A DNA stretch of 64,000 nucleotides, from the NCBI GenBank assembly GCA_026129405.1, contig JAHCID010000004.1:124001-188000 (forward strand), in the 5' to 3' direction. Positions 32,107 to 44,619 of the stretch are shown in pieces; position 1 is the stretch's first letter, and each line of letters opens with the position of its first letter. Origin of the DNA: a bacterium. Lineage in GTDB: Bacteria > Desulfobacterota > Binatia > DP-6. The position numbers and the translations under genes were made by a program. The notes under the pieces are model-generated. The model was not told the origin of the DNA and searched no databases. It worked only from the letters and a program-made list of their open reading frames with translations.

Positions 32107-32179
32107 GGCCAGGTAGCTCAGTTGGTAGAGCACACGACTGAAAATCGTGGTGTCGGCGGTTCAACCCCGCCCCTGGCCA
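32107..32179 (+). tRNA. tRNA-Phe (GAA)
   Basis: A 73-base cloverleaf. The acceptor GGCCAGG pairs with CCTGGCC at 32172-32178 with discriminator A. The anticodon stem CACGA/TCGTG encloses the loop CTGAAAA with anticodon GAA. The T arm is GGCGG TTCAACC CCGCC. CCA is not encoded and must be added by the CCA-adding enzyme, unlike the second tRNA of this window. It has its own promoter and is convergent with the SDR gene that ends at 32253. Confidence 0.95.
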
Positions 32180-33186: not shown

Positions 33187-33552
33187 ATGGGACGCGGTCG
33201 CGACGAGCATCCGATGGACACGCCGCCGGCACCGAGGCCGGCGCGGCGTCATGAGTCTCCGATTCCGCTCGATCCGGTGAGCGTGCTCGCCGGCATCGCG
33301 CCGGGGGTCGAGCTGACGGTCGATCCCCTGCCCGCCGGTGTGGCGGGTGCGCTGGAGGATACGAGGGTCACGGTGTCGGTCGAAGAGGTCGGCCGCCTGC
33401 TGCGCTGCGGCGAGGGCACCGTGCGGCGCCTGATCCGCACCGCCGTGCTGCGCCCCGTGCGCGTCGATGGTGCGATCCACGTGCGGCGCAGCGACGTCGA
33501 CACCTACCTGAAGCACGCGGCATCGCGGGTGCGCGGAAAGCCCGGCGAGTGA
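33187..33552 (+). CDS. excisionase-type helix-turn-helix DNA-binding protein
   Basis: A 121-residue protein. Residues 60-108 read RVTVSVEEVGRLLRCGEGTV and RRLIRTAVLRPVRVDGAIHV, then RRSDVDTYL, which is the MerR-like HTH_17/excisionase winged helix (EVAxLLxVxxxTVxRLIxxGxLxAxxxGxxxRIxxxDLxxYL). The N-terminal 60 residues are Pro/Arg-rich and probably disordered. A strong GGGAGGTGAGG site precedes ATG 33187. No integrase, transposase or attachment repeat is nearby, so this is more likely a free-standing regulator than part of a mobile element. Target unknown. Confidence 0.75.
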   Translation: MGRGRDEHPMDTPPAPRPARRHESPIPLDPVSVLAGIAPGVELTVDPLPAGVAGALEDTRVTVSVEEVGRLLRCGEGTVRRLIRTAVLRPVRVDGAIHVRRSDVDTYLKHAASRVRGKPGE

Positions 33553-33650: not shown

Positions 33651-33718
33651 AAGAGACCACGACTCGCCAGCGCCGCAGTGGCCGCAGGCGCAGTGCCCAG
33701 AGGGGAAAAGGAGTGCCC

Positions 33719-35215
33719 ATGAGACTACTCGTTGCTAGCTCGCTCGCCGTGCTGGCGCTGGCGGCGGCTGCACCTCGAACGGTGCAGGCGCAGTGTGCCG
33801 ACGTCACGGCGATCCGCACCGTCGTCGAGGCGACCTGTGCCTCGCAGTGCGCCGGTACGAAGAAGAAGCCGTTCAACAAGTGCCTGAACAAGTCCCTGAA
33901 GGATCAGGGCCTGAACGGCAAGTGTAAGAAGCAGATCAAAAAGATATACAACGCCTCCCTCTGCGGCCAGAAGGACACGGCGGTCGTCTGCTGTCAGCAG
34001 AAGGGCAGGAAGATCGGCACCATCAAGAAGAAGCCGACGCAGTGCAAGACCAACAAGGGTGCGTCGCTCTGTACCGGCGCCGTGCGCGGTAGCGTCGCGG
34101 GCGCGTTCTTCGACAGCGTGACGGACGTCTGCAGCGCCGCGGGCGCCTGCAACCCGACGCCGACGACGACCACGACGACCACGACGACGACCACGACCAC
34201 GACGATCCCCCTCGGGTCCTGCAACCTCAACGTTCCGTCTCTCCAGTTCACGACCGGGACGCCGACGGGCACCTGCGGTCAGTTCCTCGATGGGTCCGAC
34301 GACAAGCTCGGCGATCTCAACTGCGGCGGCCTGAACATCGGCGGCGGCAGCGGCACCGTGCTGGAAGGCCCCACCCCGGATGGCGCTGCGAACCGCTTCC
34401 TCGCCGACTGTCAGGGCGACGTCTGTACGCTCACCGCGACCGAGCTCGCGTCGGAGTGCTGGGACTGCTCGGCCGAGGGCTGCAACTTCGGCACCCCGCT
34501 CCCGATCGTGAACTCCGGCCTGTCGACGTGCGTGCTCAACACGTTCAAGACGCCGGTGAGCGGCACCATCGACCTCTCCACCGGTGTCACCACCGACCTC
34601 TCGATCAACCTCAACTCGCAGGTCTTCCTGACCGGCCTCCAGCGCTACCAGCCGGACGGCGGTCCCTGCCCGGTGTGCTCGGTGGCCATCGGTGGTCCGG
34701 CCATCTCCGGCACGCCGGAGAGCCCTGCGACGGGCGTGTGTGACGGCGGCCCGAACGCCGGCGAGCCGTGCCGTACGACCAACTCGCAGGGCCTGTCGTC
34801 GAACTGCCTGCCCGGTGGCGCGACCGAGGAGGAGCCCTGCAACCCCGATCCGCCGGTCGGTAACGGCAACTGCGCCGACGGCTCGGCGAACCTGGGTGCT
34901 ATTCCCGTCAACCTGACGCCGCTGTCGACGGGCGTTCTGTCGCAGACGGCGGATGGTGACGGGAAGTTCTGCAACGGTCAGGCGAACGCCGGCTGCTTCG
35001 GTCGCAACGACGCCCCGGTCGGTAGCCTGTGCCGCAAGATCGAGACGGAGGGCGCCGCCGCGGGCCCCATCGCCCCGAACACCCCCGTCGCCGTCACCAT
35101 GGCCAGCATCTTCTGCATCCCGGCGACGTCGAACGGCATCATCAACCTCTCGGCCGACCTACCGGGACCTGGGCAGATCAGCTTGCCGGGTACGTTCGAG
35201 CTGATCGTCCCGTAA
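33719..35215 (+). CDS. secreted Cys-rich protein with a poly-threonine linker
   Basis: A 498-residue protein. ATG 33719, 5 bases after AAGGAG, is chosen over the GTG at 33713 that lies inside the ribosome site. A signal peptide (LLVASSLAVLALAAAAPRTV) leads to a basic Cys-rich domain of about 120 residues (VEATCASQCAGTKKKPFNKC, QKDTAVVCCQQKGRKIG). A PTP-Thr14 linker near 147-162 follows, then a beta-rich domain with further Cys pairs (CWDCSAEGCNF, CPVCSVAIGG) ending PGTFELIVP. The two-domain plan with a Thr linker suggests a surface or extracellular protein. It has its own strong promoter and terminator. No known family; binding or structural roles are conceivable. Confidence 0.7.
   Translation: MRLLVASSLAVLALAAAAPRTVQAQCADVTAIRTVVEATCASQCAGTKKKPFNKCLNKSLKDQGLNGKCKKQIKKIYNASLCGQKDTAVVCCQQKGRKIGTIKKKPTQCKTNKGASLCTGAVRGSVAGAFFDSVTDVCSAAGACNPTPTTTTTTTTTTTTTTIPLGSCNLNVPSLQFTTGTPTGTCGQFLDGSDDKLGDLNCGGLNIGGGSGTVLEGPTPDGAANRFLADCQGDVCTLTATELASECWDCSAEGCNFGTPLPIVNSGLSTCVLNTFKTPVSGTIDLSTGVTTDLSINLNSQVFLTGLQRYQPDGGPCPVCSVAIGGPAISGTPESPATGVCDGGPNAGEPCRTTNSQGLSSNCLPGGATEEEPCNPDPPVGNGNCADGSANLGAIPVNLTPLSTGVLSQTADGDGKFCNGQANAGCFGRNDAPVGSLCRKIETEGAAAGPIAPNTPVAVTMASIFCIPATSNGIINLSADLPGPGQISLPGTFELIVP
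34163..34204 (+). repeat. ACG/ACC codon run encoding 14 threonines
   Basis: Fourteen consecutive Thr codons, alternating ACG and ACC, encode the linker of the secreted protein. Mixed codons show selection for the amino acid rather than simple slippage, though replication slippage could still change the length between strains. Confidence 0.85.
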
Positions 35216-35227
35216 ACCCGTAACCCC

Positions 35228-35288
35228 GACGCCGCACGGCGTCCGAACCACGACGCCCCCGGGCCTGCATGGGTCCGGGGGCGTCGTG
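35228..35288 (+). terminator. tandem hairpins with a 14-bp perfect stem
   Basis: A small hairpin (GACGCCG/CGGCGTC, 35228-35243) is followed by a 14-bp perfect stem, CACGACGCCCCCGG at 35249-35262 and CCGGGGGCGTCGTG at 35275-35288, with a 12-base loop. CGTTTCGGG follows, only a weak T tract. It ends the transcript of the poly-Thr protein, whose stop is at 35215. Confidence 0.7.
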
Positions 35289-35360: not shown

Positions 35361-35376
35361 CGTTCAGGCCTGAACG
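35361..35376 (+). promoter_or_regulatory. 16-base perfect palindrome upstream of the small basic gene
   Basis: CGTTCAGG followed by CCTGAACG is a perfect palindrome about 100 bases before the small gene at 35463. It has the size of a dimeric repressor site. The GTTC/GAAC halves recall LexA-type boxes, but the spacing and orientation do not match a box I can name. Confidence 0.4.
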
Positions 35377-35436
35377 GCGTGCCGACAGAAAATGCCCGTC
35401 GTTGCTGGAGTCCGGATGCGGCATGCATCTCGCTCT

Positions 35437-35458
35437 ATGCCCCTCCTCAGGAGGGCAT
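35437..35458 (+). promoter_or_regulatory. hairpin that would sequester the ribosome binding site of the 46-residue gene
   Basis: ATGCCC(C)TCC at 35437-35446 can pair with GGAGGGCAT at 35450-35458 around the loop TCA, a 9-bp stem with one bulged C. The right arm covers the AGGAGGG ribosome site and the first ATG (35457). Opening the stem would be needed to start at ATG 35463. This is the layout of a translational switch or thermosensor, but fortuitous self-complementarity of CCTCC with GGAGG is possible. Confidence 0.4.
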
Positions 35459-35462
35459 GGAC

Positions 35463-35603
35463 ATGGACGTCAAGACGAGCCGCAACGAGAAGAACGGAGC
35501 GCCGCGCCGGCGCGTGATCGCCGTGGGCAAGAAGCAGGGTGGACGCTGGCAGGTGCGGATGAGCCTGTGGCGCTACCTCGCCGCGACCGCGATCTCGCAG
35601 TGA
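35463..35603 (+). CDS. 46-residue basic protein of unknown function
   Basis: MDVKTSRNEKNGAPRRRVIA, then VGKKQGGRWQVRMSLWRYL and an AATAISQ end. The net charge is strongly positive, with a Lys/Arg-rich first half and two Trp in the second; no signal peptide or transmembrane segment is seen. ATG 35463 lies 7 bases after AGGAGGG; ATG 35457 is too close to it. The gene sits between a terminator upstream and a GC palindrome directly after its stop, so it is a stand-alone unit. A nucleic-acid or membrane-binding role is conceivable, but no family is recognised. Confidence 0.5.
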   Translation: MDVKTSRNEKNGAPRRRVIAVGKKQGGRWQVRMSLWRYLAATAISQ

Positions 35604-35621
35604 GCGCCGCGATCGCGGCGC
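35604..35621. terminator. bidirectional GC palindrome between convergent genes
   Basis: GCGCCGCGA followed by TCGCGGCGC, a perfect 18-base palindrome, fills the space between the stop of the 46-residue gene (35601-35603) and the stop of gshB on the other strand (35623-35625). It could end both transcripts. Confidence 0.55.
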
Positions 35622-35622
35622 G

Positions 35623-36591
35623 CTAGCCGCGATCGAGTCCCGCGGCGCGGGTGTCGATCCAGTCGAGCACCCGCGCCTCCAGCGAGACGCCGTCGAGACG
35701 GTCGATCTCCTGGATGCCGGTGGGACTCGTGACGTTCACCTCGGTCACGAGCCCGCCGATGATGTCGAGCCCGACGAACCAGAGGCCGTCGGCTTTCAGG
35801 CGCGGCGCCATGCGCGCGCAGATCTCGCGGTCGCGCGCATCGACCGGGGAGCGCTCGACGCGGCCGCCGACGTGGATGTTGCCGCGGTGCTCGTCCTCGC
35901 GCGGTACGCGCAGGACGGCGCCGAGCGGCTCGCCGTCGAGGACGATGAGCCGCTTGTCGCCCTGACGCGCGGCCGGCAGGTAGCGCTGCGCCATCACCAG
36001 GCGCTGGCCTTCGAGCGTCGACAGCTCGAGCAGCGCGTTCAGGTTGCGGTCGGCGCGATGGACGTGCAGCACGCCGGCGCCGCCGCAGCCGTCGAGCGGC
36101 TTCACGATCATCTCGCCGCCCATCGCCTCGCAGAACGCCTTCAGGCGCTCGTGGCTGCCGGTGACGATGCTCTCGGGGATCAGGTCGGGGAAGTTGAGCG
36201 CGTAGAGCTTCTCGTTCGCCTCGCGCAGCCCGCGCGGCGCGTTCATCACCAGCGTGCGCCGCTCGTCGACGAGCCCGAGCAGATGGGTCGTGAAGAAGAA
36301 CGCCATGTCGAAGGGCGGGTCCTTGCGCATGAGGACGACGTCGAACGCGGTGAGCGGCTCGATCGAGGTCTCGCCGAGGCGATATGGGACCGGGGCGCGC
36401 TCGACGTGGAGGCGGCGCACCATCGCGTGCGGCACGCCGCGCTCGACGAACAGATCCTGCGGCTCGCAGTGCCATTGCCCGTGCCCGCGGCGCTGCCCCT
36501 CGAGCTGGAAGACGAAGGTCGTGTCCTTGTCGGGGTGGATCTTCGCCATCGGGTCCATGACGTAGAGCAGCCGGCGCGGTGCGCTTCCCAT
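35623..36591 (-). CDS. gshB: glutathione synthetase
   Basis: A 322-residue ATP-grasp ligase joining gamma-glutamylcysteine and glycine. The N-terminal domain starts RRLLYVMDPMAKIHPDKDTT, the GshB-typical VMDPxxxIxxxKDTTF motif. FDVVLMRKDPPFDMAFFFTT, then MIVKPLDGCGGAGVLHVHR (ATP lid and glycine-rich loop), GDKRLIVLDGEPLGAVLRVP and LVTEVNVTSPTGIQEIDRLD follow in family order. ATG 36591 fits the known N-terminus. It converges with the small basic gene; rsmE ends 48 bases upstream, so it may share the prmA-rsmE transcript. The presence of gshB supports a proteobacterial-type thiol metabolism. Confidence 0.95.
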   Translation of the reverse strand: MGSAPRRLLYVMDPMAKIHPDKDTTFVFQLEGQRRGHGQWHCEPQDLFVERGVPHAMVRRLHVERAPVPYRLGETSIEPLTAFDVVLMRKDPPFDMAFFFTTHLLGLVDERRTLVMNAPRGLREANEKLYALNFPDLIPESIVTGSHERLKAFCEAMGGEMIVKPLDGCGGAGVLHVHRADRNLNALLELSTLEGQRLVMAQRYLPAARQGDKRLIVLDGEPLGAVLRVPREDEHRGNIHVGGRVERSPVDARDREICARMAPRLKADGLWFVGLDIIGGLVTEVNVTSPTGIQEIDRLDGVSLEARVLDWIDTRAAGLDRG

Positions 36592-43362: not shown

Positions 43363-43439
43363 GGGCCCATAGCTCAGGTGGTAAGAGCGGCCGGCTCATA
43401 ACCGGCTGGTCGTGTGTTCGAGTCACACTGGGCCCACCA
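43363..43439 (+). tRNA. tRNA with CAU anticodon (elongator Met or Ile2)
   Basis: A 77-base tRNA with encoded CCA. The acceptor GGGCCCA pairs with TGGGCCC at 43429-43435, then ACCA. The anticodon stem GCCGG/CCGGC encloses CTCATAA, anticodon CAU. The T arm is GTGTG TTCGAGT CACAC. It is not an initiator tRNA: the acceptor is fully paired and the stem lacks the three G-C pairs in initiator order. Whether it decodes AUG or, after lysidine modification, AUA cannot be settled from the sequence alone. Confidence 0.9.
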
Positions 43440-44231: not shown

Positions 44232-44619
44232 CGCCGGAGGAGGTCGAGCAGCCGCTCGCCTCACGGCGGGAGGAAAGTCCGGACTCCACAGGGCAGGGTG
44301 GCCGCTAACGGCGGCCCCGGGCGACCGGGGGAAAGTGCAACAGAAAGCAGACCGCCCCGGGCCGCGAGGCCCGGAGCAAGGGTGAAACGGCGAGGTAAGA
44401 GCTCGCCAGATCCGCCGGTGACGGCGGATGCTCGGTAAACCCCACCCGGAGCAAGACCGTGTAGGAGGGAGCCCGGCGGCGACGTCGGGCACGGGTGGCC
44501 CGCCCGCTCCCTCGGGTCGGTCGCACGAACCCGCGGGCAACCGCGGGACCAGAGGAATGGCTGCTGGGTCCGCTTATTGGGCGGATCGACAGAATCCGGC
44601 TTACAGACCTCCTCCGGCG
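44232..44619 (+). ncRNA. rnpB: RNase P RNA, bacterial type A
   Basis: About 388 bases. The ends pair as P1 (CGCCGGAGGAGGTC at 44232 with GACCTCCTCCGGCG at 44606-44619). Conserved regions in order are GAGGAAAGTCCGGACTCCAC, ACAGAAAGCAGACCGCC near 44340, GGTAAGAGCTCGCC near 44393, TGCTCGGTAAACCCC near 44430, and the closing GACAGAATCCGGCTTACAGA (positions 44588-44607). It is the catalytic RNA that matures tRNA 5-prime ends. It lies immediately after the zinc-ribbon gene and before mraZ. Confidence 0.96.

Follow-up and report, generated by a model that had tools for sequence, protein, structure and literature searches.

In a review of phage T4 (PMC3014915), the long early transcripts of gene e are described as forming an inhibitory helix over the ribosome site, and the transcripts from late promoters just 5' of the ribosome site, which lack the 5' part of the helix, are described as well translated. 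A comparable arrangement is predicted in a 64,000-nucleotide stretch of bacterial DNA (the window), in which an initial annotation had described a hairpin that buries the only ribosome site of a 46-residue basic protein. Our comparative sequence analysis indicated that the hairpin flags a genuine, unannotated gene for this protein. It also indicated that the feature common to relatives of the gene is an activator-dependent sigma-54 promoter and not the hairpin.

The predicted open reading frame was where it had been placed, on the forward strand at positions 35463 to 35603, with 46 codons at 35463 to 35600 followed by the stop codon. The Shine-Dalgarno sequence AGGAGG read from the DNA lies at 35449 to 35454. 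An alternative in-frame ATG is located at 35457; because this codon crowds AGGAGG and because the start codons of the relatives align with the second ATG, we assigned the start to 35463. We searched 58 genomes (our own and 57 relatives) and found strong homologues in all six of the other genomes of the same family (E 6e-13 to 1e-15); the 51 relatives that share only the class gave no match of similar strength. A profile made from the seven family sequences reached relatives in two further families, and profiles made from enlarged alignments reached three more. The class-wide profile matched 57 of 148 genomes at E <= 0.1. The 28 accepted genomes, a count that includes our own and spans six families, are all those at E <= 1.4e-5; the remaining 29, the best of which had an E of 1.3e-4, were left out, most of them without closer inspection, and four matches in f2 (G141, G053, G007, and G137) lay outside the examined set. 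Thus, the proviso that the protein might have no homologues anywhere no longer applied.

Several candidates were rejected. Loci L056 to L060 were attributed to chance, as composition-like matches or pieces of other frames, and the matches in G107, G194, and G081, which had no sigma-54 site, were also judged to be chance. Phylum-wide searches of 395 genomes each yielded no accepted member outside the class. Viral contigs and a first scan of genome contigs yielded no homologue, and a second scan of genome contigs returned three loci, all of them family members that were already known.

The reading frame appeared to be under purifying selection. As judged by substitution rates, dN was lower than dS in 21 of 21 pairs, and the variable columns at codon positions 1, 2, and 3 numbered 9, 6, and 26, respectively, over 32 core codons. 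Together with the extension of the protein profiles to six families, these results argue against the idea of a small regulatory RNA with an incidental reading frame. That idea would account for a short unit with a palindrome at its end, and we consider it highly improbable. In the own-family alignment, 23 of the 46 positions were invariant and the C-terminal part was almost fixed. With exceptions, the homologues shared the core [RK]-[LVI]-x3-G-[KR]-[RK]-[IV]-x-G-x-W in the alignments. In loci L112, L113, L115, and L116 (f4, f14, and f10), the invariant end of the small protein was VRTLH (9/9).

Structure prediction from four sequences was weak (mean pLDDT of 56.7), with strands at residues 22 to 25 and 28 to 31 and a helix at residues 35 to 44. 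Our guess from this model is that the protein, with its short helix and a basic, tryptophan-bearing beta-hairpin, might bind nucleic acid, the ribosome, or another protein. The protein and its relatives matched no family in Pfam or NCBIfam above the curated cut-off, and PHROGs gave just two matches for the small protein (E 0.014 and 0.045). The PDB contained no convincing solved relative, as the search returned only two designed-looking peptides (E 0.067 and 0.2). Among open-licence papers, none was recognised as describing the small-protein family.

Next to the micro-gene on the reverse strand is gshB (glutathione synthetase; 35623 to 36591; Pfam GSH-S_ATP, E 1.4e-66), which was convergent with it in all six family relatives. 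The micro-gene had been described as lying between two convergent units, and this held for gshB but not for the upstream side, where an open reading frame in the same direction (33713 to 35215, forward strand) is predicted to encode a 500-aa protein with a signal-like start, a long threonine run, and no Pfam family. In our genome, this frame separates the micro-gene from a gene for an HTH_17 (excisionase-like) protein (33187 to 33552, forward strand; E 1.1e-8). The HTH gene was upstream of the micro-gene in five of the six family relatives, as its direct neighbour, and was absent in G004. A strong terminator had been proposed upstream as well; the stem found there has 17-nt arms (35249 to 35265 and 35272 to 35288) but lacks a T run, and a scan for terminators gave no hit. 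The GC palindrome reported after the stop codon was located at 35604 to 35621. It is a possible transcript end, although a T run is missing here too and it was not called as a terminator. Elsewhere in the window, the forward strand carries tRNA-Phe (32107 to 32179), tRNA-Met (43363 to 43439), and bacterial RNase P class A RNA (44236 to 44619).

Other family groups had other neighbours. When seven loci from f4, f10, and f14 were compared, an enoyl-CoA hydratase gene was upstream in five and a PmbA/TldD gene was downstream in four; the G009 pair was identified by Pfam and the genes at the other loci by their similarity to G009. The PmbA/TldD protein, a member of a peptide-maturing protease family, is encoded 1 to 2 kb downstream of the small-protein gene in f4, f14, and f10. 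In the f7 member G018, the micro-gene homologue neighbours MgtE, with similar open reading frames in G031 and G012, and a gene for a LuxR-type response regulator is convergent with the G018 homologue. Since neighbours were kept within family groups but differed between groups, the micro-gene seemed to be its own unit.

Upstream of the gene, at 35419 to 35434 on the forward strand, is the putative -24/-12 promoter CGGCATGCATCTCGCT, with GG at 35420 to 35421 and GC at 35432 to 35433. We take GG-N10-GC in a TGGCACG-N4-TTGC-like context to be the signature of a sigma-54 promoter. Sites up to 90 nt from the start codon were scored with weights that we set ourselves on this consensus, and our site scored 18.5. 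This site was unconvincing alone because 24 sites on the two strands of the window scored at least as high. The homologues provided stronger evidence: an equivalent site scoring at least 18 was found in 27 of 28, at least 20 in 18 of 28, and at least 21 in 7 of 28, and the chance expectations per gene at these scores were 0.027, 0.0056, and 0.0014, based on 430,072 background positions from the same loci with the true sites included. The sole failure was G004, which lacks the -24 GG. A site was also present in all ten members that had been identified by protein profile before the upstream DNA was inspected (G056, G009, G035, G041, G113, G054, G015, G109, G111, and G021), and RpoN (PF04552) was found in all seven family genomes. 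The perfect consensus occurred at two other sites in our genome, both of them upstream of open reading frames, and the reversed control gave 0. By eye, these two sites (L077 and L078, C5 and C9 of G000) precede XRE-type-regulator-like and patatin-like reading frames.

Sigma-54 transcripts start about 12 nt past the -12 element. This standard spacing places the predicted transcription start at 35443 to 35450, nominally 35445. Two features of our locus count against the promoter model. The predicted +1 nucleotide is a C, with the nearest downstream purine at 35449, and the -11 to -1 region is GC-rich, which is unusual for a melting region.

The 16-base palindrome reported at 35361 was exact, and with no mismatches it occurred once in the 5.6-Mb genome. 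This sequence, CGTTCAGGCCTGAACG (35361 to 35376), matches the form GTTCA-N4-TGAAC and is centred at -76.5 from the predicted start, and we regard it as a putative enhancer-binding-protein site. In members of f4, f10, and f14, the region about 100 to 130 nt before the predicted start contains palindromic sites of the form GTWCA-N4-TGWAC, and neighbouring sites are often separated by about ten bases. We built a matrix from 11 training sites in these three families and tested it on the 18 regions that had not contributed to the training; the scoring covered 25 regions in total, with G116, G021, and G028 excluded as near-duplicates. The best matrix site at our locus was GTTCAGGCCTGAAC, the core of the palindrome (P = 0.001). 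Twelve of the 18 held-out regions had P < 0.05, in a test that was not fully blind because some of the regions had been viewed by eye before the matrix was built. The misses were G031 (0.07), G024 (0.09), G109 (0.06), G006 (0.08), G023 (0.13), and G056 (0.96), the last of which was clear. When the worst member of each genus was taken, 8 of 12 passed (Fisher's P of 1.4e-11). Many of the best sites were centred near -76, -86, -97, -108, and -118, which are about one helical turn apart; those of G004, G005, G006, and G017 did not fit this spacing.

The enhancer-like site followed by a 38- to 68-nt spacer and GGCAYG had a single joint occurrence in the genome, at the micro-gene. With two mismatches allowed, the palindrome was found at two further positions, neither of which has a sigma-54 site within 200 nt, and no wider regulon was found in the genome. 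In our reading, the palindrome would serve a single activator as its enhancer. The two f6 members G023 (L055) and G056 (L083), which missed the common enhancer test, share the inverted repeat TGTCAGAATCCCGAC ... GTCGGGAA-CCTG, which perhaps serves a different activator. In view of the conserved reading frame, the purifying selection, the conserved promoter, and the enhancer-like site, the initial view of an isolated and apparently regulated micro-gene was well founded.

The hairpin was also as described. Its arms at 35434 to 35446 and 35450 to 35461 on the forward strand form 12 pairs with one bulged C around a TCA loop, and it folds at -17.5 kcal/mol (z = -2.2 relative to dinucleotide shuffles). 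None of 33 comparison sites with a Shine-Dalgarno sequence, an ATG, and a reading frame, taken from the window and the loci of six relatives, was as stable. One interpretation of this stability is that the hairpin is a true cis-acting RNA switch on a longer transcript, in which opening by temperature, a ligand, or a protein turns the gene on. Some pairing in all seven family members also agrees with a switch. However, the left arm adjoins and partly coincides with the promoter that is conserved in six families, and this promoter places the arm upstream of +1. In addition, the hairpin retained -9.3 kcal/mol at 65°C, so the thermometer-like melting that folding at several temperatures might have revealed was not seen and an RNA thermometer is unlikely, and our locus had no match in Rfam.

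The comparison of relatives likewise gave little reason to see the hairpin as a conserved regulatory element. In all seven members of our own family, a C-rich left side stands opposite a G-rich ribosome site (duplexes of -12.6 to -20.8 kcal/mol), so complementarity of the left arm held there. In eight f6 and f7 members with the same promoter, the pairing was largely weaker (0 to -13.4 kcal/mol), so the reservation about homologues with a non-complementary left arm applied in part. The z-scores of the folds in the family ranged from -2.6 to +1.4. The compensatory changes that a conserved helix should display were absent: arms exchanged between genera paired at -15.7 vs -16.3 kcal/mol, and 35 of 120 arm permutations paired equally well. 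Taken together with the position of the promoter, these results make an RNA switch a very unlikely explanation.

Because the arm-swap tests gave no covariation, the hairpin may be a by-product. In that case, the DNA is GC-rich and a pyrimidine-rich -11 to -1 region would simply lie beside a ribosome site rich in G. The hairpin would then be inert even in read-through RNA, with the promoter and gene as we propose. The nearly equal pairing of genus-swapped arms agrees with this explanation, as do the poor fold of G002 (z of +1.4) and the long-leader relatives G012, G031, G024, and G044, which are likewise pyrimidine-rich at -11 to -1. It accounts less well for z-scores of -2.1 to -2.6 in our genome, G006, G001, and G003, for the stability that no comparison site matched, and for f1 duplexes that are stronger than most of those in f6 and f7. 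On balance, we lean slightly toward an inert hairpin.

Whether the hairpin is inert or not, the arrangement of the sites points, in our judgment with good probability, to a stand-alone gene that is transcribed by sigma-54, with an activator on the palindrome, a start near 35445, and a hairpin that forms only in read-through RNA. In this model, the putative enhancer-binding protein on the palindrome would switch the gene on and sigma-54 RNA polymerase would transcribe it from the -24/-12 promoter. The RNA would begin just 5' of the Shine-Dalgarno sequence and have a short leader. What appears as a hairpin would be promoter-spanning DNA that reaches from -11 to beyond the start site. Since the left arm is almost wholly between -12 and +1, the expected transcript folds weakly, at only -3.4 kcal/mol vs -17.5 kcal/mol, and its ribosome site is nearly free. 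With the predicted start inside the hairpin, the left arm would be mostly untranscribed and would enter RNA only through read-through from upstream. We infer that read-through RNA with the full hairpin would be poorly translated, as we infer the start site, the activator, and any cellular role; if so, synthesis of the protein would require the activator to fire. The sequence itself shows the conservation of the gene and of its promoter, the enhancer-like site, and the fold energies. Most likely, regulation occurs at transcription, through sigma-54 and its activator, and the hairpin is a secondary latch or a by-product. A stricter version is a double lock, in which a start inside the ribosome-site hairpin makes only activator-driven transcripts translatable, keeps stray ones silent, and guards an unnamed small basic protein under one enhancer-binding protein across much of the class. 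We put this version forward tentatively and consider it doubtful.

One odd hairpin thus led to an unannotated small-protein family whose promoter and enhancer grammar appears to be conserved over six families of a largely uncultured class. Since sigma-54 genes need a dedicated activator, identification of the activator would tell when the protein is needed. The locus also offers a lesson, namely, that reading DNA as if it were RNA can make a promoter look like an RNA switch.

Like sigma-54 promoters with an upstream enhancer site, the micro-gene family has GG-N10-GC in a TGGCACG/TTGC-like context, a palindromic putative enhancer site 76 to 118 nt upstream, and RpoN in the genome. Unlike in usual sigma-54 genes, the ribosome site of the micro-gene begins a few bases past the expected start. 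The ribosome site is paired in the full-length fold, as in RNA thermometers and Shine-Dalgarno-sequestering riboswitches, but the hairpin remains folded at 65°C and its left arm is probably untranscribed. A further parallel is with T4 gene e (also soc, 49, and I-TevI), in which a ribosome-site hairpin forms in long transcripts and a promoter lies inside the hairpin. At the micro-gene, the predicted start at 35445 is likewise within the hairpin (35434 to 35461), and RNA from its own promoter would be without the left arm. The micro-gene differs in that its predicted promoter is of the sigma-54 type and lies on a bacterial chromosome, where gene e has a T4 late promoter; the hairpin of the micro-gene shows no covariation, and a translation block there is suggested by analogy with gene e. 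We use the gene e layout as a model for a read-through latch at this locus. If transcription truly starts inside the hairpin, then the micro-gene would represent the T4 lysozyme latch in a chromosomal form and would offer a simple route to strict dependence on one promoter.
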